Assembly (NCBI RefSeq): GCF_963082495.1
Contig: NZ_CAUJAN010000002.1
Coordinates: forward strand, 62,001-126,000
DNA: 64,000 bases
Direction: 5' to 3'
Source of the DNA: Methanobrevibacter sp. V74
Lineage (GTDB): Archaea; Methanobacteriota; Methanobacteria; Methanobacteriales; Methanobacteriaceae
A model generated the notes under the pieces. The model did not search any database, was not told the DNA's origin, and saw only the letters and a program-made list of their open reading frames with translations. Below, in pieces: positions 39,099-55,363 of this stretch. How positions within the stretch are numbered: the stretch's first letter is position 1; each line of letters starts with the position of its first letter. The position numbers and the translations under genes were made by a program.

Positions 39099-40469
39099 TT
39101 AAGCTTTAACTATTCTTTTAAATTTAATATTGAAAATCCAAATGAAAACAAAACCGATTACAGAACCTATATTCATTCCAATGATTGCTCCTAAATAAAC
39201 TCCAAATATTCCCATGTCCAAGGTTATTCCCAGAATATAAGCAAAGGCCATGCTTAAAATTAGCTCTCTTAAAATTGTCAAAGCTAATGACTTAAATCCA
39301 GAACCAACACCCTGATAAGTATAAGCCGCTGTTGCTCCCAAAGGTATTAAAAAATTATAGAACACAAGCAATTGGAGAATCTGAGCAGATCTGTCAACCA
39401 ATGCAGGATTACTTGCCTGAAAGTTAAATACGTCACAAATCGGATAAGCAAAAATAAAAAAGAATGCTGAAATTATCAGTGTTATCGCTAAACTTAGCAA
39501 TGTTGAGTATTTAACCGTTTCATTGAAATTTCTCCAGTTTCGAGCTCCATAAGCGATTCCTGAAACAGTGATTGTTGCAATTCCTATTGCCATGCATGGC
39601 AAAAAGGCAACTGAGATAAATCTCCAAGCTATTGTAAATGATGCAACTTCATTCACTCCAGAGGTCATGATAATCAAATAATTTAGAATTATTGCAACCA
39701 ATGCAAATATAATCTCTTCTGTAGCTGCAGGAAGCGATACAACAAGTATTTCCTTATATATTTCAAGCTTGCGTTTGTAATATCTGAGCTTGAATTTGAA
39801 AAAGGTGTCTTTTTTAATATAAATCCAATAAAGCATCCAAAGATATCCTGTAAATGAAGCTAATACCGTTGCAAGTCCTGCTCCAAAAATGCCTAAGTTT
39901 AAAGCATATATTAAAATCGGATCCAGAATCATATTTAAAACAGCCGTTAAAATTAATGGGTTTGTTGCACGGCTAACATCACCTTCCCCCCTAAATATAC
40001 TTGCAGTTACATTAGGTGCTAAAAATGCAATGTTCATCAAAAATATGATTTGGCCATAACTTAGACAATATGACTTAACACTTTCTGCACCTAATAACAC
40101 CACCATATCCTCTAGAAAGAATATGCCTATAATTAAAACAATGACTGAAATAATAACTGTCAAAATTATTGAGTGGATGACTGCATTATTTGCATCTTCT
40201 AATTTGTCCCCACCAACATATCTTGAAATCAAAGAATTTGCACCGGCACCAATACCTGTGCCGAGACCTATAATAACCAAATATAATGGAGAAATAAAAC
40301 CTAATGCAGCTAAAGCATCAGAATTAATACCTGCAACCCAAAAACTATCAATTAAATTATTGAAAAACATCAAAAGCATTGAAACTATAGTTGGAAAAGC
40401 TAATTTGTTAATTGCCCTTCTAGGATTGCCGGTTATTAAATTGATATTCTCATTTTTTTGCATAGACAT
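39099..40469 (-). CDS. MATE-family efflux transporter
   Basis: 456 residues, about 12 membrane segments. N-terminal signature RAINKLAFPTIVSMLLMFFNNLIDSFWVAGI, loop ANSLISRYVGGDKLEDAN, and FRGEGDVSRATNPLI after helix 5. Closer to the NorM/DinF-like MATE proteins of gut clostridia and methanogens than to the MATE at 4015-5370. Start could be the first Met or the Met two codons later. Substrate unknown. Confidence 0.9.
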   Translation of the reverse strand: MSMQKNENINLITGNPRRAINKLAFPTIVSMLLMFFNNLIDSFWVAGINSDALAALGFISPLYLVIIGLGTGIGAGANSLISRYVGGDKLEDANNAVIHSIILTVIISVIVLIIGIFFLEDMVVLLGAESVKSYCLSYGQIIFLMNIAFLAPNVTASIFRGEGDVSRATNPLILTAVLNMILDPILIYALNLGIFGAGLATVLASFTGYLWMLYWIYIKKDTFFKFKLRYYKRKLEIYKEILVVSLPAATEEIIFALVAIILNYLIIMTSGVNEVASFTIAWRFISVAFLPCMAIGIATITVSGIAYGARNWRNFNETVKYSTLLSLAITLIISAFFFIFAYPICDVFNFQASNPALVDRSAQILQLLVFYNFLIPLGATAAYTYQGVGSGFKSLALTILRELILSMAFAYILGITLDMGIFGVYLGAIIGMNIGSVIGFVFIWIFNIKFKRIVKA

Positions 40470-40737: not shown

Positions 40738-41541
40738 TTAAAATGAACAGTAGATAACTGCTCCACCATTGCCTTTGGATAATTTTAAAAAGGAGTTTGA
40801 ATTTAATTTAGTTGGAATTCCCTTTGGAACTTCCTTATCTGAGATGAATGTGCCATTAGAACTCCCTTCATCGAGAATATACCATCCGTCAGTTTTATAA
40901 AATAATTTTAAATGTGGTTTAGATACATTTGAAACAGCAGAATAGCTATTGTCTAAAAGAATTGTAAATGAAGATAATTCATTATGTCCAAAATTACCTT
41001 TTCTTCCGATTAAGATAGTTTCATCTTTATGAACTTTAAATGTTTTACCCTTATCTATTCCATTGAATATTGTTAAAACACAATGTTCGCCGTCATTATA
41101 TTTCTGATTAACTTTATATAAATCAAAAAATGACAATAATTCATCTGATAAAAAGGTTATTTCCAAAAATAAATCTTTAAATGCATCTTCTTTTAAAGAA
41201 TAAACTTTAACATTCCTTAAACCGATTTTATTTGGAACCTCTTTTTTAATATAAGACTCTTCAATTAAATCAGCGGCAAGAAGCTGTTTTAAATGTTGAC
41301 CCAGCATTTGAGGAGTAATGTCAATATTATAATTGTTTAAAAGTATGTTATTTATTTCTCGTGAATACAATAGGTCTTTTTTAAATGAATGGTCTTCCTT
41401 AATATTTACTTTCTTGAAATCCCTTAAGATTTCCAATATTGAAAATCGAACTTCGTTATTAACTGCCGCTAATTTTACGGATATTAAATTTGAGTCCGAT
41501 AAATCAACTATCATTGTTTTGATGGTTTTGATGTCTGCCAT
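40738..41541 (-). CDS. Winged-helix DNA-binding protein with C-terminal FHA domain
   Basis: 267 residues. Residues about 25-120 form a helix-turn-helix region typical of a winged helix (VRFSILEILRDFKKV, ITPQMLGQHLKQLLAADLI, VKVYSLKED). Residues about 155-265 form an FHA domain with the phosphothreonine-binding set: GR at 179-180, Ser207/His210 (SKPH) and Asn229 (GSSNGT). FHA domains read phosphothreonine, so it probably links a Ser/Thr kinase to transcription. The only Ser/Thr kinase gene in the window is in the operon starting 2 kb away. Related archaeal wHTH-FHA proteins are known, but their function is not. Confidence 0.85.
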   Translation of the reverse strand: MADIKTIKTMIVDLSDSNLISVKLAAVNNEVRFSILEILRDFKKVNIKEDHSFKKDLLYSREINNILLNNYNIDITPQMLGQHLKQLLAADLIEESYIKKEVPNKIGLRNVKVYSLKEDAFKDLFLEITFLSDELLSFFDLYKVNQKYNDGEHCVLTIFNGIDKGKTFKVHKDETILIGRKGNFGHNELSSFTILLDNSYSAVSNVSKPHLKLFYKTDGWYILDEGSSNGTFISDKEVPKGIPTKLNSNSFLKLSKGNGGAVIYCSF

Positions 41542-42081
41542 AAATAATTCCCCTTATGTATTTAATAATATTTTTTAATTAATATTTAATAATTTTGGTA
41601 TTGGTTTTTTGCGATAAGTCATTTTAAAATTTATTATTCATTTAATTGCCGTTATAGTTGATTTAAATTGATTTTAAAGGTTAAACTTACAACATTTTGT
41701 TGCGTATTTCCAATATTGAATACTGCCGATTCAAATGCATTTAAAAGAAATTTTAATAATGATCAAATAGATTAGCTATTGCGGCACGGATACTGATTTG
41801 CTGTTGATTTCATATGAATATATTTCTCCATTGAAACATTAAAATAACAATTTCCAATATAAAACGAAATAGACATCAAAATCAATAGATACATCCTCAT
41901 TTAACAGACCATGCCTCAGGAAATCAAAACCCACATGGCAATTGAATTTGATGTTACAAAATACCAATATAAAATCAACATTCCAGTAAAAACCTATTTG
42001 GCAGCCACCGCCCATTCTTGTCGTAAGTGCAAATTGAATATTTAAACATAATAATTAAATAGTATACAACTCAAAAATAAC
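41542..42081. other. Intergenic region without recognised gene
   Basis: About 540 AT-rich bases between the FHA gene and a short frame at 42082. I see no intact gene or RNA. A plus-strand stretch near 41915-41990 is briefly open but has no start and matches nothing I know. Confidence 0.35.
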
Positions 42082-42216
42082 ATGTGTCTAGTAAATAAGA
42101 ATTTACTAATTGAGATATTTAATGAAAACTACCGTAATGTAATTATATCAGACATAGAAAGTGTGTGGGACATCCATAATTCAAATAATGCATTTATTTA
42201 TGACGCATTTTCTTGA
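42082..42216 (+). CDS. Possible small protein of 44 residues
   Basis: The frame MCLVNKNLLIEIFNENYRNV continues to ...NAFIYDAFS and a TGA. Composition is protein-like and there is a TATA-like AGTATACAAC about 20 bases upstream, which would fit a leaderless transcript; no ribosome binding site is seen. It lies just upstream of the TPR gene. Chance cannot be excluded. Confidence 0.35.
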   Translation: MCLVNKNLLIEIFNENYRNVIISDIESVWDIHNSNNAFIYDAFS

Positions 42217-42292
42217 TGAAATATTTTACTTTACAATAGAATAGTTTATATGACTTAATACAACTCGATTATAAAAGAAGTATTAGATTAAT

Positions 42293-43252
42293 ATGTCAAA
42301 GAGATACATAAAAAAAGAAATCGATGAAGCTCTAGAGTTAATATCGAATGATGCCCTTAAAGCTTTGAAGATATTTGATGATATATTAAAAATTGAACCT
42401 GAAAATATTAATGTGATTAATGGTAAAGGATTTGCATTAATCAAGTTAAACAAACTTGAAGAAGCTGAAAAATACTTTAATAAATCATTAGACATTGAAA
42501 AAAACTCCTCTGCATTAATTAATAAAGGCATAATAGCTAAAAATAAAAAAGAATACGATCAGTCCCTAATATATTATGATTTAGCTATTGAAATTGATCC
42601 CAATATGCAAAATATCGTAAATATCCTTAAAAATGAGATTTACGAATTGATGCCTAATAAATCATTAGCAAACATGACTAACTTTTCGGCTGAATCCAAC
42701 AGTTATATTAAAAGAGGATTGCATTATAAAAATAACCACGAGATTTGGAAAGCTCTGGAATGTTTTAATCAAGCAATTATCGTTGATTCAACTTGTGAAA
42801 ATTTCGTGAATGCATTAACTGACGAAATCGACACAATCATATTTAATGACTTCCTATTCAAGACCCCAATGTTTAAAGACTGTGAAGTCGACCATTTGAA
42901 AATACAAGCTTTAAAAGAATTATTGGTTAAAGAAAACATCAATAAAGCTTTGAAAATAATGAACCAAATCTTAAACATGAATAAAAATGATATAGATACT
43001 TTAAACTATAAAGGTTGCACATTATTCTTAATGGGCAAATATGACAATGCAATTGATTGCTTTGACAAATGCTTATCCTTAGATAATGACTATTATTATC
43101 CATTATTCAATAAAGGATTGGTTTTAAGAAGGAAAAACGAATTAATCAAGTCATTAACTTGTTTTACTGAACTTTTAAAATTTAACAAAGAACATGATAA
43201 AATAAAAGAATATCAGTTAGAAATCCTAAGTGTTCTTCAAAAAATGAAATGA
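42293..43252 (+). CDS. Tetratricopeptide-repeat protein
   Basis: 319 residues, all helical, soluble. TPR units are visible at about 30-65 (INGKGFALIKLNKLEEAEKYF, NKSLDIEK), 66-100 (INKGIIAKNKKEYDQSLIYY), 140-165 and 240-310 (YKGCTLFLMGKYDNAIDCFDKCL, FNKGLVLRRKNELIKSLTCF). TPRs mediate protein-protein binding, often with Hsp70 or kinases. It is convergent with the TPR/HExxH gene, eight bases apart, and shares its repeat style. TATA-like TTTATATG lies about 45 bases upstream. Likely part of the chaperone/kinase locus. Confidence 0.85.
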   Translation: MSKRYIKKEIDEALELISNDALKALKIFDDILKIEPENINVINGKGFALIKLNKLEEAEKYFNKSLDIEKNSSALINKGIIAKNKKEYDQSLIYYDLAIEIDPNMQNIVNILKNEIYELMPNKSLANMTNFSAESNSYIKRGLHYKNNHEIWKALECFNQAIIVDSTCENFVNALTDEIDTIIFNDFLFKTPMFKDCEVDHLKIQALKELLVKENINKALKIMNQILNMNKNDIDTLNYKGCTLFLMGKYDNAIDCFDKCLSLDNDYYYPLFNKGLVLRRKNELIKSLTCFTELLKFNKEHDKIKEYQLEILSVLQKMK

Positions 43253-43260
43253 ATCAAATA

Positions 43261-44610
43261 TCACTTTTCATATTCCTTTTTATATTGTCTAATCATGTTC
43301 ATATCCCCATTGTCAACAATACTGACAATGCCATTTGAAATAATTCTATTAATATTATTAACCCTATCCTCTACAGGTAGAGTTTTCTTAGTTTCTAGCA
43401 AAATGCCGTCATAATTTGGAGGATGATTAAAATCTTTTTTAAATTGTTCCTTTATCTCGTCTCTCCAATTTTTAGTTATTAAATCTTCAAATATCAGAAG
43501 TATGTCCTCAGCAAAACTATTTCCTAACATTAGATAATACTTAAGTCTTTTTTTATCTCTTTTAGTATCAAATCTTTTAAGTAACATATTGAAAGACCCG
43601 TAATTTTGATATCCAAATGGTAAAAATCTTCCTTGAACAGTATGAGCACAATACTCATTCATAAGAGTATAAGATTTATTATTAGTAATGCAATAAATAG
43701 AAATTGCTTCAATTGCATTTGTTTTATCACTATTCCAGATATACATCAGGGATTGTGTAAATATTTCATTGAGAATATGATGACTTAATTCATGGATAAT
43801 CGTGGAAATTTGATTTGATTCATCCAGCCTATCATCAACATGGATTATATTGAATGCATAACTACCTAATTCAGCCCCTTTGGTTTTATATTCAATGTCA
43901 GCATAGGACAGCGCCAATATACTAATTTTTTTAAAAATACTTATCTCAGATAAATTTATATCGTGTTCTTTTATTATCTTATTAAAATTAGTTGAACCGG
44001 CTTGTTTAATTCTGTTTAATATTTCCCCATATTCTTCAACAGTTAATTGATTATCTTTTAGCATATTAACTCTTTTTTTAGTGAATATATTTCCAAAATC
44101 GTTTAAATCTGAAAAGGTAGTGAATCCTTCTTTTTTATCCAAATCTATTAAAGTATCATTTTCTTCAATGGAATAATTTTCATTATTGAATGAATTTAAA
44201 ATATTATCTATGTCGAATTTATTTTTGTTTATCGAAAGCATTTTATCATCACCATTAGAAAGAATTTCCTTTAAATTTTTCTTAAGAATTAATGCTTCTT
44301 CATTTTCACCATAATATTTTAAAGCCAAATTACAATAAATTAAAGCTTTATCATACTTTTTAGCTAAAAATAATAAATATGCTTTTCCACTCCATGCATA
44401 AGACTGTTTATCATTAATCTTTAAAGCTTTATTAAATGACATATATGCATTTTCAAACTCTTTTGCTTTTATCTGACATATTCCCAATAAAACTAGAACT
44501 CCATCATTATTTTTATCCTGTGAAAGAATAAGATTTAAATAGTCAATGGCCTCAGTATAATTTTTAGAGACAATATGTTTAATAGCAATTCTAAATAATT
44601 TTCTGTCCAT
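43261..44610 (-). CDS. TPR protein with a metallopeptidase-like HExxH domain
   Basis: 449 residues. TPR units occupy about 5-115 (AIDYLNLILSQDKNNDGVLV, NKALKINDKQSYAWSGKAYL). After a linker, the C-terminal half has STIIHELSHHILNE with His273, Glu274 and His277 (HExxH), and about 45 residues later NEYCAH, a possible third metal ligand, as in gluzincins. No signal peptide, so it would act in the cytoplasm. It is the last gene of the minus-strand chaperone operon. The TPR part probably selects targets for cleavage; proteolytic activity is inferred. Confidence 0.8.
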   Translation of the reverse strand: MDRKLFRIAIKHIVSKNYTEAIDYLNLILSQDKNNDGVLVLLGICQIKAKEFENAYMSFNKALKINDKQSYAWSGKAYLLFLAKKYDKALIYCNLALKYYGENEEALILKKNLKEILSNGDDKMLSINKNKFDIDNILNSFNNENYSIEENDTLIDLDKKEGFTTFSDLNDFGNIFTKKRVNMLKDNQLTVEEYGEILNRIKQAGSTNFNKIIKEHDINLSEISIFKKISILALSYADIEYKTKGAELGSYAFNIIHVDDRLDESNQISTIIHELSHHILNEIFTQSLMYIWNSDKTNAIEAISIYCITNNKSYTLMNEYCAHTVQGRFLPFGYQNYGSFNMLLKRFDTKRDKKRLKYYLMLGNSFAEDILLIFEDLITKNWRDEIKEQFKKDFNHPPNYDGILLETKKTLPVEDRVNNINRIISNGIVSIVDNGDMNMIRQYKKEYEK

Positions 44611-44647
44611 TTATCCACCCTATAAAAAAATAAAGGAAATAATTAAG

Positions 44648-44992
44648 TTATCTTACTGCTTCAATTTTTAAAATACTTTGAAATTGAATTAGAGTATCCA
44701 TTGGAATATTGAGTATAACCAAATAAAAAATGATTACTCCCAGCACCATTCCAGTCAAATATAATGTTATAAGACCAAAAGGCCTTTCATATGCTCCATT
44801 ATGATAATAATCAAAAGCAACAATTAATTCCAATCCTCCAAGAATAGAAGCAATTAAAGAGTAATATAATGCATCAATCCCAAAAAAGGATATATCATAA
44901 CTTATACAATAAATACTAAATATAAATAGTATTATAGCATATATACTGGATTGTATAGCCATATTCCTATTAAAATTATCATTGAAATTCAT
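44648..44992 (-). CDS. Small membrane protein of the chaperone operon
   Basis: 114 residues with three to four predicted membrane segments (SSIYAIILFIFSIYCISY, ALYYSLIASILGGLELIVAF, FGLITLYLTGMVLGVIIFYLVIL). No recognised domain. It begins nine bases after the phosphatase gene and is followed 37 bases later by the TPR/HExxH gene, so it belongs to the same transcript. It could anchor the system to the membrane. Confidence 0.75.
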   Translation of the reverse strand: MNFNDNFNRNMAIQSSIYAIILFIFSIYCISYDISFFGIDALYYSLIASILGGLELIVAFDYYHNGAYERPFGLITLYLTGMVLGVIIFYLVILNIPMDTLIQFQSILKIEAVR

Positions 44993-45001
44993 ATTTTCAC
45001 C

Positions 45002-45766
45002 TCATTCTCCTTGTATAAATTTAATATTATTTATCAAATAATCCACATTACGCACAGGCAGTGATAAATCAACATCCAAATAAGCCTTATTATCCGAACC
45101 AAAACTAGATGATACAATTAATTGATTTCCATAAGTAAAATAACCATCAACAACCGTATGACCAACAACCATACAGTTAGAGCCAATGATTTCAAGAAAA
45201 CCCTCAACATCAGCTACTGAATAATCATTATCATAACGATTCCATAAGAAATCATGAAGAAGGTCATAATTATAATCATTGTCAAAAATCATGTTAAAAT
45301 CATTCATAGAATGAATAAATCTAGAGGGCCCGGTATGAGATATAAACAACCCATTTTCTGTTTGGACAAAAAGAGGCATTGACTTGAAAAATTCAACATA
45401 ATCAGTCAAATAAGGTTCAAGAGATCCCTTTTTCTTTTTTATCAAATCTTCAAATTCCTGAGTTTGATTATTAAATCCTTTAAATACCGGACTTCGAACA
45501 ATATGACTCCATTCATGATTGCCTAAAAGGGGATGGAAATTGGGATATTTTTCGTATTTTTCAATAACATCATCAATTATTTCAATTGAACCATCATCTT
45601 CACAGGTAGCATGAATAAAATCACCTACAAAGACCAAATGATGATCTGGATTATTACAGTCCCACAGGTCAATATATTTTTCATAATCCTCTAAATCACC
45701 ATGCAAATCAGTGACAACTAATAAACGACCCTTTGCAGGCAATTGAATAAATTTATCTTTTAACAT
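45002..45766 (-). CDS. PPP-type (calcineurin-like) protein phosphatase
   Basis: 254 residues from the ATG at 45766, next to a GATGAT motif; an upstream ATG at 45826 would add a hydrophobic stretch not expected in the family. All PPP metal motifs are present: TDLHGD (Asp20, His22), FVGDFIHA, LLGNHEW and VVGHTVVDG. These bind two metals for phosphoester cleavage. A Ser/Thr protein phosphatase role opposing the kinase at 50673-52307 is the simplest reading. Related enzymes that cleave dinucleoside polyphosphates are an alternative. Confidence 0.85.
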   Translation of the reverse strand: MLKDKFIQLPAKGRLLVVTDLHGDLEDYEKYIDLWDCNNPDHHLVFVGDFIHATCEDDGSIEIIDDVIEKYEKYPNFHPLLGNHEWSHIVRSPVFKGFNNQTQEFEDLIKKKKGSLEPYLTDYVEFFKSMPLFVQTENGLFISHTGPSRFIHSMNDFNMIFDNDYNYDLLHDFLWNRYDNDYSVADVEGFLEIIGSNCMVVGHTVVDGYFTYGNQLIVSSSFGSDNKAYLDVDLSLPVRNVDYLINNIKFIQGE

Positions 45767-45834
45767 AATATCATCAAAATGAAAAAAAATAAGAAGAAAA
45801 GCTCTTCTTAATAAAATCTTTAACAATAATCATT

Positions 45835-48342
45835 TTAAGTCCTATCCACTCCAGCAGACATGCCTCCAGGATTATTCGGATCAATAATTGCAAGATTCAT
45901 AAGCTTCTGTCCGATATTAGCCATTGCCATTGCATCATCATTTTCTAAAGCTTCAGTAGCTTTTTGTTTTAAATCGTTGACCAAAGATTCATCTTCATCT
46001 TTATATTCAGCGAACATTACCAAATACAGTAATGCATTTTTAATATCTTCAAGAACCTGAGTTTCAGGTGTGCATCTAACTTGAAGGGCAATTAACGAAT
46101 CTATTATTTGATTAACTTTAAGTGAATCTTCATTTTCAATAGCTTCATCTAATTGTCTTGAAAGGGTGTCAAATTCTTCCCTGTCCTCAAAAGATCCGTT
46201 TTCATTGACTAACTTTTCAACATTATCCCTTATATTCTTAACTTCTTCAAACTGATTTTTTTCATCAAAAAATTTATTAATATTGCTTAGAATTTCATTT
46301 AATTTATTGATAAGTTTATTTGCTTGATTAAGTGCACCGTCATCGTTTTCTGCACCATCCATGAAATCTTCAATATTTTCAATGATGTTTTCCTCATCAA
46401 TTTGATTTAAATAGTCTTTTATTTCATCGGTTGCATCATTTGCACTGCATTTTGATTTTACTTCTTCATAATTACTTTTTGCTTTGATGAATTTATTATT
46501 TACCTCATTAAAATTGAGAATTTCAAGATTCGGGTCAATTTTAAATGGAAATTTCTGACCTATATCTAAAACATTTACATCAAATTTCATTACACGTGAT
46601 TCGTCAATATCAACAGTGACTGTAATTTCACTACCTTTTACCATGGTTTTTTCAACATCAACACCGGAAATTATTAATTCTCCGACTTTTTGATTATTGG
46701 ATGCAATTTTAGCAGTGCCATTATACAAAGGCATTGAAATAAAACTTGTTTCATCACCTTTTGTAACCTCAGATGTTGTTTTGAATGGTTCCATATTATG
46801 ATATGGTAAAGGTGAACCTTCCTTAGCTAAAACAAATAATGTATCATCATATAATCCCAATCCTAATGTGTGCGGTAAAATAATAGTTGGCTCAAAACCG
46901 GCAGTATATTCAATTGCATTAGCCGAATTTTCATCAAGTTCAACTAAAATTCCATTTGGATCATATAAATTAATTGAATATTTATTTGATTCATCTTCAG
47001 GCATTAACTCAAATTCAAAAAAGCCATCATCCTCAACAGAAATCTTTCCTGTGCTTCTTTTTGTTTTAATATTTATTGCTTCAATAGTAAAACCTTCAAA
47101 GTCATCAACTTGATCGGATAAAACTTCACCTGAAACAAAAAATTCCTCATCGATTGGACCGGTAGCATCATAATCTAGCTTTAATGCAAAACTGCCTGAT
47201 GAAAGTTCCACATAAGGATCAGGTATGGTTCCTGCAAATAATGCTGATCCCTTAGCAACAACAGTTGTTGGGTCAATATCATATTTTAAAGGTATATCAA
47301 ATGATTTTTCTAAATTTTCACGTATAACCGGACTAAGAGTTGAACCCCCAACAAGAATAATGTAATCAATATCATCGACATTTAATTTAGCTTTTTTTAA
47401 TGCATCATTACAATGGTTAATTGTTCTTTTAATATAGGATTCCATAACTCCTTCAAGCTCATCCTTAGTTAGATTATATTTAAAATCGTAAATTTCATTT
47501 TCATGAACTAATAAGCTATCAACAAATATTCTTGATTTATCCAATCTTGATAAATCTTTTTTAGCTTCTTCTGCAGCACCTTTAAGTTTTGCAAATGCCT
47601 TTCTGTATTTTTCCTCATTCTTTTTATTGAAATCCATTAGACCCAAATCGGCACTGATTTTTTTGGCGAAAATTTTGAATACAATGTCCCAATCTATTAG
47701 ATTTCCGCCAAGATGCTCATCTCCCGAATGGGCTAAATTTTCAAATTCATCATCTTCCAATTTCACAATAGAAACATCGAAAGTGCCGCCGCCTAAATCA
47801 TAAATTAACCAAGTTCCATCTTCATTTGATAAGTTATAATAGGCATAAGCTGCTGCAACAGGTTCCATTACATTCCAAGTATTTTTAAAGCCAGCAAGTT
47901 CTGCAGCTTTTTTAGTAGCTTCATTTTGTATAGGTCCAAAATCTGCAGGAACTGTAATTACTACAGAATGAACTTTTAAATCCAATTGTTTATAAACAGA
48001 ATTTTTTAAGTCCTTTAAGACTTCAGCAGATAATTCTTCAGGCAATAATGTTTTATCTGAATCTTTAAAATGGAATCCTTTGTTCATCCCCATGTTAAGT
48101 TTAAATTCAGCGGTTGCATTATCTGGATCAAGTAAAACCTGTCTTTTTGCCGAATCCCCAACAAGAACATTGCCTTCCTCATCCATAGCAACAGCAGAAG
48201 GCGTGAAATTTCTGTTACTAATTAAATTCGGAACAATAGGAGTGTCATTACCTTCACAATGGGCAATGATTGAAGTTGTTGTTCCCAAATCAATACCGAA
48301 ATCAACCGTTTTTGTTCTCAATTCATCAGAGTTGTTTGACAT
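45835..48342 (-). CDS. Hsp70-family chaperone with an extended helical C-terminus
   Basis: 835 residues from the ATG at 48342, chosen for GGTGA five bases upstream. The ATPase domain is complete: GIDLGTTTSIIA, VVITVPADFGPIQNEA, EPVAAAYAYY, DLGGGTFDVSIV and ILVGGSTLSPVI. A beta-rich substrate-binding region follows (about 390-610), then about 200 residues of acidic helices, longer than in DnaK (about 610-640 residues in all). The segment between about 400 and 480 is an insertion not seen in DnaK. No standard DnaK C-terminal tail. It is encoded with GrpE-like and J-like proteins, a kinase and a Clp ATPase, so it is likely a specialised Hsp70. Confidence 0.9.
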   Translation of the reverse strand: MSNNSDELRTKTVDFGIDLGTTTSIIAHCEGNDTPIVPNLISNRNFTPSAVAMDEEGNVLVGDSAKRQVLLDPDNATAEFKLNMGMNKGFHFKDSDKTLLPEELSAEVLKDLKNSVYKQLDLKVHSVVITVPADFGPIQNEATKKAAELAGFKNTWNVMEPVAAAYAYYNLSNEDGTWLIYDLGGGTFDVSIVKLEDDEFENLAHSGDEHLGGNLIDWDIVFKIFAKKISADLGLMDFNKKNEEKYRKAFAKLKGAAEEAKKDLSRLDKSRIFVDSLLVHENEIYDFKYNLTKDELEGVMESYIKRTINHCNDALKKAKLNVDDIDYIILVGGSTLSPVIRENLEKSFDIPLKYDIDPTTVVAKGSALFAGTIPDPYVELSSGSFALKLDYDATGPIDEEFFVSGEVLSDQVDDFEGFTIEAINIKTKRSTGKISVEDDGFFEFELMPEDESNKYSINLYDPNGILVELDENSANAIEYTAGFEPTIILPHTLGLGLYDDTLFVLAKEGSPLPYHNMEPFKTTSEVTKGDETSFISMPLYNGTAKIASNNQKVGELIISGVDVEKTMVKGSEITVTVDIDESRVMKFDVNVLDIGQKFPFKIDPNLEILNFNEVNNKFIKAKSNYEEVKSKCSANDATDEIKDYLNQIDEENIIENIEDFMDGAENDDGALNQANKLINKLNEILSNINKFFDEKNQFEEVKNIRDNVEKLVNENGSFEDREEFDTLSRQLDEAIENEDSLKVNQIIDSLIALQVRCTPETQVLEDIKNALLYLVMFAEYKDEDESLVNDLKQKATEALENDDAMAMANIGQKLMNLAIIDPNNPGGMSAGVDRT

Positions 48343-48364
48343 GTTATTCACCATTATTATATTA

Positions 48365-49120
48365 TTATTTAGTCCCTGCTTTTGTAACAACGACTTGTGC
48401 TTTTAAAATTTTGTTACCTTTAAAATAAATTTCCGGTTTTTTAGTTTCCGTAATTGTAGGTTCTTTTAAATTAGGATCAGGATTTTCAAAAGAAATTAAA
48501 TCAATATCCATATTCACGTCATATTTTTGACCGATAGGATCTTTCACTTCAAAACCCCACTTTGACAGTTTTGACATTAAAAGATTATAGTATTCCACAG
48601 TAGAGTTAATAGGGCGAATCGAATCATTAATTATCTTTTGACACATTTGAACTTCACTTAAATCCTTGCCGAGTTTTGCAGCATCAGCTTTTGGATTTTC
48701 CATGATTTTCAATAATTCTTGTTCTTGATTTGACAATAAATTACATACAACACCTAATTGATTGTTTTCTTGATAATCAGTTACAATCCCTCCGATTTTC
48801 CAAATATTTATTATCATTTCAACCAATATTCTATTCATCTTAGAGGAAATGGCGGGATTTTTGGAATCTAAAACCTGAATGTCTTTGACAAGTTTTGCAA
48901 CTACCTTTTCTATTTCCTGCATACGATTGATAAAAATCATGTCAAGTTCGGATGATTCTTTTTTATTTGGATTAGGTATTGCCTGTTTTGGATTTTTCAA
49001 CATGTTTTGATTTATTTGATTCATATCTATTTTAGCCCTAGGAGGAATATTTTTTGTATTATTTCCTTTTTGATTTCTATTAAATATTCCTTTAACAGAA
49101 TTTAACGGATTTTCACTCAT
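48365..49120 (-). CDS. GrpE-like candidate nucleotide-exchange factor
   Basis: 251 residues. The N-terminal about 60 are polar and Asn/Lys/Pro-rich. The middle (about 60-175) is helical and probably a coiled coil (FINRMQEIEKVVAKLVKDI, LSNQEQELLKIMENPKADAA). The C-terminal region (about 180-251) is beta-rich and ends PEIYFKGNKILKAQVVVTKAG, which resembles the end of GrpE (G-Y-x-L-x-x-R-V-L-R-P-A-x-V-x-V). It lies directly upstream of the Hsp70 gene, 22 bases apart. GrpE similarity is weak and inferred from this pattern plus position. Confidence 0.6.
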   Translation of the reverse strand: MSENPLNSVKGIFNRNQKGNNTKNIPPRAKIDMNQINQNMLKNPKQAIPNPNKKESSELDMIFINRMQEIEKVVAKLVKDIQVLDSKNPAISSKMNRILVEMIINIWKIGGIVTDYQENNQLGVVCNLLSNQEQELLKIMENPKADAAKLGKDLSEVQMCQKIINDSIRPINSTVEYYNLLMSKLSKWGFEVKDPIGQKYDVNMDIDLISFENPDPNLKEPTITETKKPEIYFKGNKILKAQVVVTKAGTK

Positions 49121-49132
49121 ATTATCACTACC

Positions 49133-50662
49133 CTATAGCATATTAATAACCACATTAAATGCAATGGATGCTAAAATCACTGCAGCAACGAAAATGAAAA
49201 ATCGTTTATTGTAAGAGAAAGTATTATGAACTATAGGCATTATCTCATCAAGTCTTATATCTAATGAATTTTGACCGGTGCCAATATTTATTTTACCTTC
49301 ACGTATTTCATATCCTAAAGCTATTACTTTATATTCATAGTTACCTTTAGGTAAGTCATATATAGTAGTTGATCCCGAAGTGGTCATGACTTCCTCAAAC
49401 TTCTGACCAGTTTCAGAATTAGACAACATCACAACAGCGATTAAATTATTGCCCTTCTGGTCTTTAACAGATACATTAAGATTAGCTGAGTTAACATCAG
49501 AACTTGTTTCGTCAAATTTAATTTCATCAATAGACAAATCCGCACGTATATTCTCTTTTAATGCCTTATCAGTGACATTTTCATATAACATATTTAATAA
49601 ATCTATAAATTTCTTATAACTTGCATCATCCACTAATTTCATGAAAATCAATATTTCAGCGGTTGGAATTTTATTTAGCAAAAATCTACAAGTATTATTC
49701 AATAAATTATTTGCAAAAGTGTCATTGCTTAATGAATCGTGTAATATTGATAAATAAGGCATTATCTCATCACTATAATCAAATAATAAATTAAATTTAT
49801 CCTTTTCATCTGCACTTTCAAAAGACCTTACAAAAGAATCCTTATTTCGATTTATTGAATTTTCAATGAGATTAGTAATTTTAGAAGAGACTCTTGAAAT
49901 AACTGATTTATCGAAAGGAGAATTTTGAATACAGTCAATGAAATTAGATACACAATCCAATTGTGTTTTTGTGATATTTGAGGAGTCCAAATATTTTTTA
50001 ATAAAAATATAATTAATATTTAACAAATCATAAGGCAATTCTTCAAATATTTCATCAACAAACTTTTCAGTCAAACGAGGATGATTCAAAGTATTGACTC
50101 TTTCTTTAACAAAGTTTTTAAAGTTATTTGAATCAATAATTCGTGACCAATAATTTAATGAAAGCTCTAAATCATCAAATAACATTATATCCCCATCACC
50201 ATCGATAAATCCATCTAATGCTCTAACATGATATAAAACAGCCAAATTATGGATGGAAGTCATATTCATAGTGTTTGATATAGATGTGTCATTCCAATAA
50301 GAAATAGCTTCATAATATTCACCGTCTTTTAAATATCCTACAATTTCATCATCTAAATCACTGTCAAATGATTTTGGCCAAAACCAAAAAATTTCATCTA
50401 TCAATCTTGTTTCAACATCTTTTAATCTATTTTTTGCATCCTGATACTCATTATATGATGGCTCTGGTGAAACTGGCAATAAAAAATCCATTTTAGAATT
50501 TTTAAAAACATCAACTAAAGGTTCAGTATCATTAAAATCTTTTCTTTCTCTGTATCTATTAATTTTAGAAATACGATTATCAATTTTTCTATTTTTACTT
50601 GTTATATCCAAACCGAGAATTCTAAAACCATTTGTCCTGTAAATATTTTCATGTATATCCAT
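49133..50662 (-). CDS. Membrane-anchored J-like protein with a C-terminal beta-sandwich
   Basis: 509 residues. The N-terminus NIYRTNGFRILGLDITSKNR recalls the start of J-domain proteins (N-x-F-R-x-L-G-L), followed by RLKDVETRLIDEIFWFWP, but the HPD tripeptide is absent. A long helical central part follows (about 100-400). About 405-475 is a small beta-sandwich resembling PEGA or carboxypeptidase-regulatory domains (ANLNVSVKDQKGNNLIAVVM, STTIYDLPKGNYEYKVIALG). One membrane helix (FFIFVAAVILASIAFNVVI) ends the protein. It may bring Hsp70 to the membrane. J-domain nature is tentative. Confidence 0.65.
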   Translation of the reverse strand: MDIHENIYRTNGFRILGLDITSKNRKIDNRISKINRYRERKDFNDTEPLVDVFKNSKMDFLLPVSPEPSYNEYQDAKNRLKDVETRLIDEIFWFWPKSFDSDLDDEIVGYLKDGEYYEAISYWNDTSISNTMNMTSIHNLAVLYHVRALDGFIDGDGDIMLFDDLELSLNYWSRIIDSNNFKNFVKERVNTLNHPRLTEKFVDEIFEELPYDLLNINYIFIKKYLDSSNITKTQLDCVSNFIDCIQNSPFDKSVISRVSSKITNLIENSINRNKDSFVRSFESADEKDKFNLLFDYSDEIMPYLSILHDSLSNDTFANNLLNNTCRFLLNKIPTAEILIFMKLVDDASYKKFIDLLNMLYENVTDKALKENIRADLSIDEIKFDETSSDVNSANLNVSVKDQKGNNLIAVVMLSNSETGQKFEEVMTTSGSTTIYDLPKGNYEYKVIALGYEIREGKINIGTGQNSLDIRLDEIMPIVHNTFSYNKRFFIFVAAVILASIAFNVVINML

Positions 50663-50672
50663 CGATTACACC

Positions 50673-52307
50673 TCACATAGATAAACCACGCTTCCATAAA
50701 GATAATTTAACAGAATATTTATCTTTTATAACATTATCTGTAAGAATAGCAAATTCCATTAACCTAGCAACTTCAACTTTTTTAGAATCGTCCCATCTAT
50801 ATTTCTTAATTAATTTAACTGATTCATTTACAATTTTATCAACATCACATGTTTTTAAAGTATTAATAACCGGTTCATACATTTTCTTAATATATGGATA
50901 ATCCTCCATTAATTCATTAAGGTAATCAACCGCCTCATTAATATTTTTGTTTTCAGACAAATCTGACAATAATGACCATAAACACACATAACCTTCATAT
51001 TTTCCATTTAAGTTAGGATTATATGCAATTGCTTCCTCTAAAAGGTCGCATGCAAGTGAATAACTAGGGTTATTTTGACTGTATACATTAAACGCCTCTT
51101 TTTTTAATTTTTCATCAGGCATTTCATCTTTCCATAATCTAAGGCGATAAGTATATTTTTCACGAACATCAATATTGTTAATAATTGCTTTTTCAAGAAT
51201 TTCAATAGCTTCCTCAAGTTTATTTTCCTGTTTAGCTAATTTGAAAGCTTTTGACAACATGTCTTCCATACTTTCGCTGAATTCTGGATCATTAATGTTT
51301 CCTTCATCATCCTCATCAATCGAACCTGAAGAAGATATTTCAGAAGTATAAATCATAGTTGTTTCATCTACTCCCAAATCATCCTCCATAAAGTCATTGA
51401 TAACTTTTAAAAGTTCTCCTGAATTACTATATCTTTCCCTTGGATTAACTGCCAAGCATTTCATTACGATTTCATTTAATTTTGGAAATATTTCTGAATT
51501 ATACATACTAGGAGGTTTTAATTGCCTTTCCCACGGTTTTCCAAAAAACATGTCCCCCATATCAAAATGTAAGATGTCATAAGGGAATTTATTTGTTAAT
51601 AACTGATAAAATATAACTCCCAATGCATAAATATCGCTCATTGCAGAATAACTCTTTTTAAAACATTCAGGAGCCATGTAAAGTGGCGTTCCTGCAACAG
51701 ATAATTTATCAAATGATTTATCACTATCTTTTGCATTTGCTAAACCAAAATCAGTAATCTTAATAAGTGGCTTACCATCTTCTATTTTCATTAAAAGATT
51801 TTGAGGTTTGATATCCCTGTGAATAATTTTAGGATTGTTATTATGCAAAACATCCAATCCCATGGCAATTTGTTTCATTATGTCTAAAACCTCAATTATA
51901 GGCATTATTTTATCCTGATTTTCAAAAGATTTCCAATATTCCCATAAATCACCACCTACAACATATTCCATAACAAAATAGGCATAATTTTTATCACGCC
52001 TATCCTTTAAGCCGAAATTAAAAAGTCCATTTTTATCCTGTCCCGAAACTGATATAATCCCTGCATCATGCATACTAATAACATTTTTATGCCTAATCAA
52101 GGTAGCAATTCTTGCTTCTTTAAAAATATTATCAATATTTTTAGCAGGCAAAGGTTCCTTGTTAATTTTCATTGCACGGCGATCATTTAAGTAAATATGT
52201 TTTGCAAGATAAACATCTGCAAAACCTCCAGCGCCCAAAAATTTTTCAATTTCATACTGGCCTCTAAAAAATTCCTCAACCATTTGTTTTACTTCATCAT
52301 GATTCAT
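50673..52307 (-). CDS. Eukaryote-like serine/threonine protein kinase with helical repeat C-terminus
   Basis: 544 residues. Complete kinase core: Gly-rich loop LGAGGFADVYLA (about 24-35), Lys47 in AMKI, Glu64 in helix C, HRDIKPQN with Asp165, DFG at 186-188, and APE (YMAPECF). An RD-type, probably active kinase. Residues about 345-540 are acidic and helical, with TPR/SEL1-like repeats (AIEILEKAIINN, ACDLLEEAIAYNPN), a likely substrate or partner surface. No membrane helix, unlike bacterial PknB. Gaps of 10 bases on both sides show cotranscription with the J-like and Clp genes. Confidence 0.92.
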   Translation of the reverse strand: MNHDEVKQMVEEFFRGQYEIEKFLGAGGFADVYLAKHIYLNDRRAMKINKEPLPAKNIDNIFKEARIATLIRHKNVISMHDAGIISVSGQDKNGLFNFGLKDRRDKNYAYFVMEYVVGGDLWEYWKSFENQDKIMPIIEVLDIMKQIAMGLDVLHNNNPKIIHRDIKPQNLLMKIEDGKPLIKITDFGLANAKDSDKSFDKLSVAGTPLYMAPECFKKSYSAMSDIYALGVIFYQLLTNKFPYDILHFDMGDMFFGKPWERQLKPPSMYNSEIFPKLNEIVMKCLAVNPRERYSNSGELLKVINDFMEDDLGVDETTMIYTSEISSSGSIDEDDEGNINDPEFSESMEDMLSKAFKLAKQENKLEEAIEILEKAIINNIDVREKYTYRLRLWKDEMPDEKLKKEAFNVYSQNNPSYSLACDLLEEAIAYNPNLNGKYEGYVCLWSLLSDLSENKNINEAVDYLNELMEDYPYIKKMYEPVINTLKTCDVDKIVNESVKLIKKYRWDDSKKVEVARLMEFAILTDNVIKDKYSVKLSLWKRGLSM

Positions 52308-52317
52308 AATAACACCC

Positions 52318-54612
52318 TTAGTTAACCTTAAATTTTAAATCATTACGTACTGCTGAAATAACAATTGTATTTCCCTCTTTAACTTCTCTATTGACAATCA
52401 TGTCAGAAATTGGATATTCTACAAGCTTTTCTACAGTTCTTTTAAGATATCTAGCTCCAAAGTTTGCATTATACCCTTTACTTACAAGATATTTATAAAC
52501 TGAACCCTTGATTGTAAGTCCAATAGCTTTTTCAGACAAAAGGCGATTTGCAAATTCATCAACATACAATTTTACTAAAGATTCGTGGTCAGATTTCGTT
52601 AATGAATTAAAAATTATGACATCGTCAATTCTATTTACTAATTCTGGTCTCATTACTTGTGCTAAATTATCCAATATATTTAATGTATTCATATCTTCCT
52701 GAGTCCCTCCAAATGCAACATTATAATCTTGTCTTGTTTCAAGTTGAATGTTTGAAGTCATTATAAAAATACAATTTTTAGCATTTATGGTATTCCCTTT
52801 TCCATCGGTTAGACGTCCTTCATCAAATGCCTGCAGAAACACGTCGAATATTTTAGGATGTGATTTTTCAATTTCATCTAATAACACGATTGAATAAGGA
52901 TTATTCTTAATTGCATTAGTCAAAAATCCTCCTTCATCATTGCCTTTATAACCTGGAGGAGCACCTATTAATTTTGAAATTGAATGTTCTTCTTTATATT
53001 CTGACATGTCCACCCTGATTAAAGATTTTTCATTATCAAATAAAAAATTAGCTAATGTTTTCGAGAAAAATGTTTTTCCAACACCGGTTGGCCCTAAAAA
53101 TAAAAAAACCGCCAGAGGTTTATCCGGATTATTAATGCCTGCATAAGAATTTTTAATTCTTCTTGAAACTTTTTCAATAACATGATCCTGACCAATGATT
53201 TTTGATTTCAGAAATCCTTCAATTTTTTGAGCTTTATCCAATTGTGATGATTCATCAGAAATAGGAACTCCAACCCATTCAGAAACAACTGTTCTAACAT
53301 CTTCTTCACTAACAATAGATTCTATACTTAAAGAATTAGTTATATCTAATTTTGGAATAATTTTACGAGAACATGCTTCATCAATTACATCTAATGCCTT
53401 ATCTGGAAGGTTTCTATCAGGAATATATCTCACCGATAAATTCACAGCAGCATTAATTGCTTCATCTGAAATTGTAACATTATGATATTCCTCATAATTC
53501 TCTTTTAAACCTTTAAGAATGAATAATGTATCTTCAGGAGTAGGTTCTTCCAATACAACCGGTTGGAATCTCCTTTCAAATGCAGGATCTGTTTCAAAAT
53601 ATTTTCGATATTCTTGTAATGTAGTTGCACCTATCATTACCAAATCACCATTAGCTAATGCAGGTTTTATAATATTGGAAGCATCTAAACTGCCGCCACC
53701 AGAACCTGCCCCCAGCATCGTATGAATTTCATCTACAAATAAAATAACATTAGGATTATCCTTAGATTCATTGACAAGTTTAGTTATTTTTTCTTCAAAG
53801 TCTCCGCGATATTTAGTTCCTGCAACTAAAGAAGCCATGTTTATTTCAATTATTTGTTTATCATTTAGGAAGTTTTTCATACTTCCATCAAGAAGTTTTA
53901 TAGCCAAACCATTAACCAAAGCAGTTTTACCAACCCCAGGTTCGCCTATAATTAAAGGATTATTCTTTTTGTGTTTGTTTAAAGTTCTAATAACCTGCAA
54001 TAATTCATCGTCCCGTCCAATTACAGGAGTTAACTTTCCTTCTTTAGCTAATTCAGTTAAATTAGTACCATATTTAACCAATATACTATTAGAAGATAAT
54101 TTTAATCTTTTTGATTCATTAATATTTAAATTAGTTTTCAATTCCTCAAATTCCACATTATTATCTTCAAAAAAAGTCTTGATAATATCTGAAGGATTAT
54201 TTAAAATGGCTTTTAAAACGTGAATACAGCGAACCTCTTCACTGTTTGTATTTTCAGCAATATTATTTGCATCATTAAAAATAGCTTTACAAGACTCAGA
54301 CCTTGAAATCATTTGGTTTTCAGATTCAAAATTCCCATTTCCCTTTAATTTACGAATTTCATGTCTTATGAATGAAGTTTCAATATTAAATTTTTTAAAA
54401 AAATCGATTATTTCATCATTTTCAATATTGATATTTCCCGCATAATCATCATTAAAATTAATCTTATTCTCATTAATCAAAAATACTATTTTTTCCATAC
54501 TGCAAATACCGATTAATAGTTCATCTTCAGAAAAAAATTCTTGTTTGAGATTGGCGGCTTCAGCGGCACCTAATTCCCATGCCAAATATACACTTTTAGA
54601 TAATCTAACCAT
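52318..54612 (-). CDS. Clp-type AAA+ disaggregase/unfoldase with almost no middle domain
   Basis: 764 residues. A Clp N-domain (about 1-150) of two repeats is followed by AAA1 with GEPGVGKTAL and FVDEIHTMLGAG, and AAA2 with GPTGVGKTFF and LLDEIEKSHPKIFDVFLQ, Arg-finger regions and a C-terminal small domain (NFGARYLKRTVEKLV). Between DEACSRKI and the SEWVGVP motif only about 30 residues remain, so the ClpB coiled-coil propeller is absent and even the short ClpC one is reduced. I see no clear ClpP-binding tripeptide loop. It probably acts with the Hsp70 set or threads proteins for another partner. Confidence 0.9.
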   Translation of the reverse strand: MVRLSKSVYLAWELGAAEAANLKQEFFSEDELLIGICSMEKIVFLINENKINFNDDYAGNINIENDEIIDFFKKFNIETSFIRHEIRKLKGNGNFESENQMISRSESCKAIFNDANNIAENTNSEEVRCIHVLKAILNNPSDIIKTFFEDNNVEFEELKTNLNINESKRLKLSSNSILVKYGTNLTELAKEGKLTPVIGRDDELLQVIRTLNKHKKNNPLIIGEPGVGKTALVNGLAIKLLDGSMKNFLNDKQIIEINMASLVAGTKYRGDFEEKITKLVNESKDNPNVILFVDEIHTMLGAGSGGGSLDASNIIKPALANGDLVMIGATTLQEYRKYFETDPAFERRFQPVVLEEPTPEDTLFILKGLKENYEEYHNVTISDEAINAAVNLSVRYIPDRNLPDKALDVIDEACSRKIIPKLDITNSLSIESIVSEEDVRTVVSEWVGVPISDESSQLDKAQKIEGFLKSKIIGQDHVIEKVSRRIKNSYAGINNPDKPLAVFLFLGPTGVGKTFFSKTLANFLFDNEKSLIRVDMSEYKEEHSISKLIGAPPGYKGNDEGGFLTNAIKNNPYSIVLLDEIEKSHPKIFDVFLQAFDEGRLTDGKGNTINAKNCIFIMTSNIQLETRQDYNVAFGGTQEDMNTLNILDNLAQVMRPELVNRIDDVIIFNSLTKSDHESLVKLYVDEFANRLLSEKAIGLTIKGSVYKYLVSKGYNANFGARYLKRTVEKLVEYPISDMIVNREVKEGNTIVISAVRNDLKFKVN

Positions 54613-54692
54613 GTCTTAACCTCATAATAATATTTGAAATTAATATAATGTATGTAAACTCCATTAATCATGTGAAACTAGTTTTATAGTCA

Positions 54693-55061
54693 TTAATTTC
54701 TACGGAAAACAAAAATTAAACCAACAAATAATGAAATAATTAATCCAGTATATATTGAACCTAAATTTAACATTGAATATGGAAAACTGATATCTGGACC
54801 AAATATCCTTGTAAAACCAAAATTCAACATTGAAAAAGCAATAATTATTGTCAGTATAACTCCAACTATTGCCGTTGATTTTGTTGTAGCTGCAGAACTT
54901 AATATCGCACCTGCCATAATTGCCATGAGAATATACAAGATAAATACTAATAAAATATTATCTCCTAAAACAAAGTGTACTACTGCAGATAGAATAATTA
55001 AAACTATGAATAAACTTATAAGTGCCCCTAATGTGGCGCCAAGTATTTCGGATACATCCAT
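54693..55061 (-). CDS. Small four-helix membrane protein at the head of the chaperone operon
   Basis: 122 residues, four predicted membrane segments (LGALISLFIVLIILSAVVHFVLG, ILLVFILYILMAIMAGAIL, AIVGVILTIIIAFSML, SIYTGLIISLFVGLIFVF) and a basic end. Resembles TIGR04086/DUF-type small membrane proteins only in composition. It is 80 bases upstream of the clp gene on the same strand; AGGTAATATTATG is the start context. It may be the first gene of the operon. Function unknown. Confidence 0.7.
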   Translation of the reverse strand: MDVSEILGATLGALISLFIVLIILSAVVHFVLGDNILLVFILYILMAIMAGAILSSAATTKSTAIVGVILTIIIAFSMLNFGFTRIFGPDISFPYSMLNLGSIYTGLIISLFVGLIFVFRRN

Positions 55062-55363
55062 AATATTACCTCCAATTAATATATATTATTAAAAAAATAT
55101 TTAAGTAAAATAAAGTATTTACTTTATAGAAGGATATCCAACAGAATTATTGTCAGAAAAAATTAGTTTTAGCAGATTTGTTGATTTATTTGTTAAACTA
55201 TTAATAAATTGAGTTTTAAATGGTGTGCTGTGGATTTTTTTAGCAGAAACTGGTGTTTATCTATTTTTTGAGTTAATGGCATGTGAGCTGATTAAAATTT
55301 GATTTAGCTAGAGTTTAAATTTAAAACACTTAATATTTAAAAAAATAAGAAGATAAAATTTAA
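55062..55363. other. Intergenic region without recognised gene
   Basis: About 300 bases between metY and the chaperone operon, AT-rich. It should hold the terminator of metY and the promoter of the operon (AAATATTTAAG- and ATATATATTAAT-like stretches close to 55075-55100), but no single motif is convincing. Confidence 0.35.

Follow-up and report, generated by a model that had tools for sequence, protein, structure and literature searches.

We found that the 64,000-nucleotide window of Methanobrevibacter sp. V74 analysed here (contig NZ_CAUJAN010000002.1, forward-strand positions 62,001 to 126,000) carries a minus-strand operon of nine genes in which a Ser/Thr kinase and a PPP-type phosphatase are joined to an Hsp70/Clp chaperone set, with an FHA gene close by. 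Judging from gene order, gene fusions and co-occurrence, the system to which this operon belongs is real and conserved, and is very probably one working unit. We interpret the window as the A1 form of an archaeal system that spreads horizontally. In this reading phosphorylation gates an Hsp70/Clp switch, which the FHA protein connects to the protection of translation and RNA; we consider the reading plausible though somewhat short of probable.

A conserved kinase-chaperone operon

All nine open reading frames (ORFs) proposed at 43261-55061 by a sequence-only reading of this DNA, which had also placed it in an archaeon, were confirmed, and the short gaps that it described measure 8-80 bases (37, 9, 8, 12, 10, 10 and 80 from the low end upward). 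The Hsp70 and GrpE-like genes overlap by 26 bases only with a TTG start for Hsp70, and comparison with homologues makes the ATG at 48342 the likelier start. A TPR gene and the FHA gene adjoin. Pfam and NCBIfam scans covered ten window proteins, with mem122 left out. The features are as follows.

55102..55127, minus strand: promoter palindrome ATAAAGTAAATACTTTATTTTACTTA, a shared cis-element, 41-66 bases upstream of the first start codon of the operon
54693..55061, minus strand: mem122, a 122-residue membrane-type protein, first gene of the operon (homologues)
52318..54612, minus strand: Clp-type double AAA+ ATPase without the ClpB M-domain (Pfam/NCBIfam and alignment)
50673..52307, minus strand: Ser/Thr kinase with intact catalytic motifs and a weak TPR-like tail (Pfam and homologue alignment)
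51357..51362, minus strand: codons of kinase T316-T317 in the linker DETTxIYTS, a candidate FHA ligand
49133..50662, minus strand: JL, a co-chaperone-like protein with an FWFWP motif, an Ig-like domain at about 390-475 and a C-terminal hydrophobic helix
48365..49120, minus strand: GrpE-like protein (profile comparison)
45835..48390, minus strand: Hsp70 with an inserted Ig-like domain at about 405-500, an SBD-beta and a long helical C-terminus (likely start 48342)
45002..45826, minus strand: PPP-type metallophosphatase (Pfam and homologue alignment)
44648..44992, minus strand: mem114, a 114-residue membrane-type protein (no Pfam match)
43261..44610, minus strand: TPR and HExxH (M78/IrrE-like) protein (Pfam)
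42293..43252, plus strand: TPR protein (Pfam), whose homologue in several sister loci has the palindrome upstream
40738..41541, minus strand: FHA protein with a probable winged-helix N-terminus, candidate reader of the palindrome (Pfam)
39099..40469, minus strand: gene that we take to be MATE-like, a flank probably outside the set; in several relatives its homologue is the last gene of the sister (fusion) locus

When scanning 84,980 species genomes with a phosphatase profile and two peptide patterns, we obtained 30 loci, 18 archaeal (17 Methanobrevibacter and 1 Methanosphaera, 48-80% identity) and 12 bacterial (20-36% identity); in the locus maps some loci are the same place under two handles (L048=L034, L049=L096, L036=L050). 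Type A1 (the window, L046, L047, L048=L034, L049=L096, L100) has the order mem122-Clp-kinase-JL-GrpE-Hsp70-PPP-mem114-TPR/HExxH, which recurs in 6 loci with Hsp70 identity down to 53%, the core order still holding at 39%. Its small membrane genes vary: mem122 homologues occupy the same position in L046, L047 and L048 (50-53%), the homologue in L096 is divergently placed (29%) and mem114 was unseen there, and mem122 is unmatched beside Clp in L100. Type A2 (4 loci: L035, L036=L050, L051, L052) has the order TIR-beta-helix-Clp-kinase-JL-GrpE-Hsp70-TPR-PPP; the L051 and L052 loci are cut through their TIR genes, and TIR was seen in their genomes. In a kinase-less type (L095, L097, L098, L099) Clp is followed directly by JL, with split frames in L097 and with L099 ending at JL.

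Moreover, of about 149 (149-150) Methanobacteriales genomes, 14 have JL and the identical 14 have full-length type A Clp; 50 further genomes of the order have partial or weak Clp matches only. The FHA gene was found in 36 genomes of the order, a 37th (G153, E 7e-4) being dropped, and in 12/14 type A genomes. The survey of neighbourhoods in Methanobacteriales and bacteria showed conserved linkage, in line with one conserved set, and not the scattered, unlinked homologues that the sequence-only reading had named as its refutation; chance or mis-annotation as the origin of the gene set is ruled out by this conservation. In L098 (G093:C9), the kinase-less core at 2919-15347 lies between two rpoA2-like genes of 982 and 398 residues; the 982-residue gene has a large insertion, intein-like by look, with an rpoA1-like gene beside.

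To our knowledge, few circuits of archaeal Ser/Thr kinases are known. The window kinase matches Pkinase (Pfam, 4e-48), and K47, E64, HRD 163-165, N170, DFG 186-188 and APE 212-214 are invariant in 9/9 homologues; the Hanks-type signature (Lys, HRD, DFG, APE) is complete, and the enzyme is predicted to be active, as had been supposed. The phosphatase matches Metallophos (Pfam, 2e-12), its metal ligands D40, H42, D69, N103, H104, H164 and H223 are invariant in 8/8 homologues, and its motif variant is TDLHG/GDFIH/GNHE versus the PPP form GDxHG/GDxxxx/GNHE; the ligand set is complete, so that the PPP assignment stands and activity is predicted. In the gene described earlier as winged-helix/FHA, the FHA half is clear (Pfam, 3e-9) and the winged-helix half gave weak matches only (HTH_20, 0.022; Csa3, 3.7e-4). 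The last gene of the operon has the expected TPR match and, below cut-off, an M78 match (7.5e-4). The window and L100 agree in how the FHA and TPR genes are placed beside the operon, and the FHA gene lies upstream of Clp in L096. The ETT form of the kinase linker was found in 5/6 type A1 kinases (L100 has DTS) and is absent from the 4 type A2 kinases and from the fusions among those listed.

Chaperone components and the kinase::Hsp70 sister locus

The long Hsp70 of the earlier description was borne out: it matches HSP70 (Pfam, 1e-80), the motifs of its nucleotide-binding domain (NBD) are invariant in 9/9, and in a profile alignment the window (type A) Hsp70 aligns with archaeal DnaK through the SBD-beta, giving the NBD and SBD-beta of the DnaK family. 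Clp is a double AAA+ protein that scores below the equivalog cut-offs of ClpB (739 bits; 738.9 versus 1232.1) and ClpA (657 bits) and below the cut-off of ClpV (608 of 884.95 bits), and the ClpA model matches it in one stretch, the ClpB model in two. The M-domain of ClpB has a role in DnaK coupling; in one alignment, nothing in the window Clp corresponds to residues 448-525 of E. coli ClpB, and nothing in ClpA to residues 443-526. The GrpE-like protein has a weak PRK14141/GrpE match (2.5e-4, below cut-off), and hhalign against a GrpE profile gave 41% probability over 170 columns with controls at most 0.3%, in agreement with its earlier naming; its predicted structure has a pLDDT of 63, and GrpE is not in the fold-search list.

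JL had been read as a J-like membrane protein. Its C-terminal hydrophobic helix fits, but no HPD motif was present in the N-terminal region of 18 aligned members, and hhalign against the J domain gave 2% with archaeal members and 13% in the expected register after bacterial members were added, compared with 11% for an unrelated control; outside the family, the best JL-profile match among the proteins searched was a genuine J protein (E 0.02). Fold searches with the GrpE-like protein and JL returned no GrpE or J match, their lists being filled by helical bundles and an Ig domain, and a PDB sequence search with the two profiles gave nothing clear. Therefore, with a JL lacking HPD and a Clp lacking the M-domain, classical disaggregation is not shown, and a classical disaggregase is weakened as a candidate. 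What stands of the phosphorylation-controlled disaggregation, assembly or defence machine of the sequence-only reading is the joining of kinase and phosphatase to Hsp70 and Clp; its Hsp70/J/GrpE/Clp disaggregation lost both of these features, and defence is unproven. That reading had not included the kinase::Hsp70 fusion locus, the TIR and RyR partners of relatives, the relatives in bacteria or the palindrome common to RNA repair, tRNA arrays and extra elongation factors.

The operon might still be an additional one, tuned by phosphorylation, that disaggregates or folds proteins under ordinary stress such as heat or oxygen, a variant of ClpB-DnaK-DnaJ-GrpE: the activities are represented, the type A Hsp70 has both domains, the housekeeping DnaK set is separate, and no other full-length Clp was found in the 14 type A genomes among the candidates scored. 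We consider this distinctly unlikely, given not only the missing M-domain and HPD but also the restriction of type A Clp to just 14/149 genomes, and a palindrome (below) that is common to RNA repair, tRNA arrays and TIR genes and occurs in none of 22 DnaK-type control loci.

The sister locus, type B, consists of an FHA gene and a kinase::Hsp70 fusion, mostly preceded by RtcB and SIS and followed by PPP and RyR, and often accompanied by MATE and a divergent TPR gene; RtcB stands next to the SIS and FHA genes, and some copies are without certain genes or incomplete on their contig. We counted 16 fusions, one more copy that breaks off ahead of the kinase (L056) and one frame-broken copy (L034); in L037 the kinase spans 18-279 and Hsp70 525-881 (Pfam). 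A profile of 15 fusion rows (14 distinct) keeps the NBD, the Ig-like insert and the helical C-terminus and skips residues 495-601 of the window Hsp70, the stretch that aligns with the DnaK SBD-beta. The sister-locus Hsp70 lacks the SBD-beta, which points to signalling. In G079 the kinase and Hsp70 are neighbouring and unfused, with a recognisable SBD-beta. At L034:2336-6818 a fusion split in frame, with a short phosphatase behind it, lies next to an intact A1 operon.

The window locus, between the MATE-like gene and a presumably sulfhydrylase-like gene at 55364-56680, occupies the same site as the type B locus in L044 (flanking genes 81% and 92% identical). The window has probably lost the type B body, keeping FHA, TPR and MATE, with type A1 next to them. 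In the Hsp70 tree, which drew a long-branch warning from the program, the Hsp70s of type A and of the fusions form one group apart from housekeeping DnaK, and the fusions form one group. Kinase-less L095 (G137, which shares a genus handle with G148, the genome of the Methanosphaera locus) nests within A1, and therefore transfer and kinase loss are indicated. On a Halomicrobium plasmid (L101:7596-11078), one 1160-residue protein combines Hsp70, GrpE and kinase, with two further plasmids at 90% identity (3 records); in the tree its Hsp70 sits with DnaK, at the end of a long branch.

Among 296 Bacteroidota genomes, ten have an Hsp70 in an 830-870-residue frame at E <1e-85, above the DnaK background, and G608 is a further likely long-Hsp70 genome outside the mapped set. 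The 11 mapped bacterial loci (ten Bacteroidota and plasmid L102) have JL relatives beside Hsp70 in 6/11 (L110, L111, L102, L114, L115, L119; L102, L114, L115 and L119 entered the JL profile only through iteration, first-round E 0.001-0.42), kinase matches in 5/11 (L111, L114, L115, L119, L102, with kinase::AAA by Pfam in L111 and L102) and none in 6/11 (L110, L112, L113, L116, L117, L118), and weak GrpE signals in L110, L111, L114, L116, L117 and L102. The gene preceding JL varies (RHS repeats in L110, NACHT-FGE in L111), and L102 adjoins BREX genes. Since the kinase is joined to Hsp70 in the sister locus and to an AAA ATPase beside a related Hsp70 in some Bacteroidota, the kinase, AAA ATPase, Hsp70 and GrpE-like protein most likely work together. 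Elsewhere, 299 Bacillota gave 1 C-terminal JL match, judged spurious, and one long Hsp70 (1/299 at 1e-88) whose 16-kb stretch has no kinase-profile match; JL had no match in plasmids, the window Hsp70 had none in E. coli DNA, and none of 44 phage records matched it at 80% coverage. On a Shewanella plasmid (L123) a lone long Hsp70 relative follows shortly after TnsD/TnsE-like genes, probably as Tn7-type cargo.

The shared palindrome and the genes behind it

A promoter element common to the kinase-bearing types is well supported: the palindrome is present in A1, A2 and B members. A plain inverted-repeat search missed it; expectation maximisation on 24 upstream regions found it as the motif aTAAAGtATTTnCTTTATttnAnTTA with a log-likelihood of 165 (80 restarts), compared with 69-85 in simulated controls (n=8, 25 restarts each). 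In L044, L046 and L054 the palindrome is nearby although the upstream region scores low. When the exact pattern TAAAGN6CTTTAN4ANTTA was counted in 149 genomes, 163 sites were found in the 36 FHA genomes (mean 4.5, median 2; 14 genomes with at least 4) and 62 in the 113 genomes without FHA (mean 0.55; 1 genome with at least 4), an enrichment with p 1.3e-10 (1.4e-9 within family); the reversed-pattern control gave 0.31 and 0.27, respectively. The proposed link of FHA to transcription is plausible; genomes that have the FHA gene are richer in the palindrome, and the FHA protein is its likely reader.

A position weight matrix (PWM) scan at a score of at least 19 gave 62 matches across 338 kb of loci that had been selected because they contain sites. 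It gave no match in 1.19 Mb of untargeted sequence from three FHA genomes, nor in 89 kb of DnaK-type loci. In the locus scan 24/37 PWM matches lie at most 250 bases before a listed system gene, with one flagged within an ORF and many belonging to the training set. The second PWM match of the window (42423-42448) is inside the TPR gene and was taken as chance. A general tRNA promoter element was rejected, the 1.19 Mb without matches holding 24 non-array tRNA genes. The shorter TAAAGN6CTTTA with one mismatch allowed occurs 18 times in the window versus 7.9 expected, and was not used as evidence.

In the regulon survey (loci of G096, G020, G111, G023 and G079) the palindrome stands in front of tRNA clusters, RtcB, RlaP, Thg1, EF-1alpha, EF-2, GlmS, vWA, HEAT, DAG kinase, DUF285, TPR and other genes, and an RNA_ligase family gene stands behind a tRNA cluster; 3/62 matches were marked as falling within genes, and some lack a close gene. 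G096 has a second pair of elongation factors (EFs), EF-2/EF-1alpha in L158, which differs from the presumed host pair in L223 (EF-1alpha 82% identical; EF-2 against the G023 copy, 79% for L158 and 67% for L223). The surveyed loci hold 17-39 predicted array tRNAs per genome. From one genome to another these are 73% identical (212 pairs), and compared with the remaining tRNAs of their own genome they are 66% identical (7 pairs); non-array tRNAs are 91% identical between genomes (only 3 pairs). Anticodons with A34 are unusual for archaea; the array tRNAs in L156, L163 and L170 include predicted Leu aag, Phe aaa and Arg acg. Before tRNA clusters the palindromes stand in two or three close copies (L163:7951-8059, L170:8521-8883, L161:18318-19627, L160:6291-6396, L166:4782-4890). 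A 690-residue family (L165:7524-9596, relatives in L157, L169 and L171 at 66-83%) has the palindrome upstream in L165 and L169 and no Pfam match.

The tRNA clusters of M. ruminantium M1 and RUG344 were already reported, and the start of the G079 array differs by at most one base from the M1 coordinate in the available part of PMC6333295. Further, the available part of PMC7772410 on M. ruminantium lists a TPR kinase and two rtcB genes and no such system. Spare tRNAs, ligases and elongation factors could be the cargo of a virus or large mobile element, merely carried by the host. Indeed, tRNA arrays occur in phages and large plasmids, where they are termed a putative antidefense system (PMC12803027, available text), and our trees indicate transfer between genera; however, viral-contig pattern scans gave no relatives of JL, PPP, FHA or RyR proteins, and the 12 exact sites of G079, an FHA genome on a single contig, are spread over separate places (0.36, 1.08, 1.34, 1.70-1.75 and 2.86 Mb), so that we hold cargo to be very improbable.

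Antiviral defence is the main rival: here the chaperone machine would arm or release effectors (TIR in A2, TIR-RyR beside kinase-less L095), with NAD-derived signalling. A TIR gene directly precedes Clp in 4/4 A2 loci (by Pfam in L035 and L036, in the genomes of L051 and L052), and at L095:13843-17133, beside type A, one protein carries two TIR domains, an HD-like region and RyR repeats (Pfam). RyR was found in 32 genomes (31 above cut-off), 27 of them with FHA (p 4e-17), NACHT-FGE stands before JL in L111, BREX is beside L102, and Tn7-type genes are beside a relative. On the other side, TIR is in only 8/14 type A genomes, neither TIR_2 nor RyR was matched in the window genome, PADLOC matches are weak or look like generic kinase or AAA, and the RtcB, EF and tRNA content fits repair better than killing; we consider defence unlikely. 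NAD signalling is not claimed for the window genome. Type B RyR proteins carry RyR repeats and, as judged by eye, an HD-like motif (LFHDIGYP); in L037, H550 and W553 correspond, by spacing comparison only, to H75 and W78 of RyDEP, a phage protein that binds cyclic ADP-ribose (cADPR), and in the available part of PMC13232231 RyR domains of phage proteins bind or cleave 2'/3'-cADPR. No text on RyR was found in PMC9503650. By alignment, L062:13879-17091 is likewise a large TIR-type/HD-like/RyR-repeat protein.

A proposed switch and its relation to known systems

In the phosphorylation-gated switch that we prefer, the kinase and PPP phosphatase would determine how far a dedicated remodelling machine of Hsp70, GrpE-like protein and Clp is phosphorylated; JL probably keeps this machine at the membrane. 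Client load (damaged or stalled proteins, for example after attack on translation) would occupy Hsp70 and Clp, and kinase activity would change. The FHA protein may then bind the kinase in its phosphorylated form, through the DETT linker, or a different phosphothreonine partner, and leave or gain the palindrome. This would activate the chaperone operon together with any RNA-repair and extra-translation genes that the genome has; resetting the switch would fall to the phosphatase, possibly with the M78-like protein. The sister-locus Hsp70 is probably an ATP-driven switch for the fused kinase. Protection of translation is our best guess for the role. Specifically, we suggest, as a tentative proposal that is possible rather than probable, that the switch monitors the health of protein synthesis and, through FHA and palindrome, turns on back-up translation (ligases, tRNA end repair, divergent tRNAs, extra EFs), with the sister-locus Hsp70 signalling instead of folding.

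Several observations weigh against this interpretation. FHA binding to the site and the direction of signalling are inferred. FHA is missing in 2/14 type A genomes and is on another contig in G121, and the four kinase-less loci, which also have no palindrome match, mean that the kinase is not essential to the core. Among the training regions 7/24 score <2, including the region upstream of the window FHA gene; many FHA genomes hold 0-1 exact sites, the regulon loci were picked for holding the pattern, and the co-occurrence and site-enrichment tests ignore shared ancestry. Ahead of the tRNA arrays, the distance from the nearest palindrome to the first predicted tRNA is 56-471 bases, more than most protein genes show. 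The window operon is without RtcB, and no tRNA cluster of more than five genes was found in the 400 kb of the genome that were examined together with the window. The window genome has a single exact match, on the reverse strand, and 55102-55127 fits the exact pattern and therefore is that match; with one site, no RyR, no TIR_2 and no large tRNA cluster, the translation arm is therefore not shown there.

The system offers a bounded archaeal kinase circuit with kinase, phosphatase, chaperone, reader and promoter sites, and a kinase fused to an Hsp70 lacking SBD-beta would put the Hsp70 ATPase cycle to a new use. Should the promoter link hold, it would explain the divergent tRNA arrays and duplicate EFs in some rumen methanogens and would provide an archaeal counterpart to tRNA-damage responses. 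G079, which agrees in array position with cultured M. ruminantium M1, combines the unfused kinase and Hsp70 genes with the FHA gene and 12 exact sites, and this makes expression work feasible.

The sequence-only reading knew of no described system with this set, and our searches of the open-licence literature returned none. The PpkA/PppA/Fha/ClpV module of type VI secretion combines kinase, phosphatase, FHA and Clp ATPase, whereas the window set is Hsp70-based with a Clp below the ClpV cut-off, and no secretion family scored above cut-off among the ten scanned proteins, as that reading had it. The ClpB-DnaK-DnaJ-GrpE disaggregase is alike in its double AAA+ ATPase, Hsp70, GrpE-like factor and possible J-degenerate partner, and differs from the window set, which has no M-domain or HPD, a dedicated kinase and phosphatase, and a patchy distribution. 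As described in the available part of PMC7790460, the RtcR operon rsr-yrlBA-rtcBA shares RtcB under a dedicated regulator and the tRNA-damage theme; here an FHA candidate regulator takes the place of the CARF-bearing RtcR, with a kinase-Hsp70 partner, extra tRNAs and EFs. With the archaeal tRNA clusters (PMC6333295) and mycobacterial tRNA array units (PMC12803027) the shared feature is the arrays, those of M. ruminantium M1 and RUG344 being ones already described; the available parts of these two papers report no common promoter element, kinase-Hsp70/FHA or EF link. Finally, the GAP1-N2 conflict systems (Kaur et al. 2020, PMC7159879), as far as the available part describes them, have Hsp70, GrpE and a J-type protein with FNIII repeats, a set that resembles the Hsp70, GrpE-like protein and JL of the window, and in another theme kinase, phosphatase (PP2C) and vWA, with a predicted conflict role. 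In contrast, no GTPase family is among the matches listed for the ten scanned window proteins, and the present system has kinase, PPP and Clp together, a kinase::Hsp70 fusion and a palindrome common to RNA repair and tRNA arrays.

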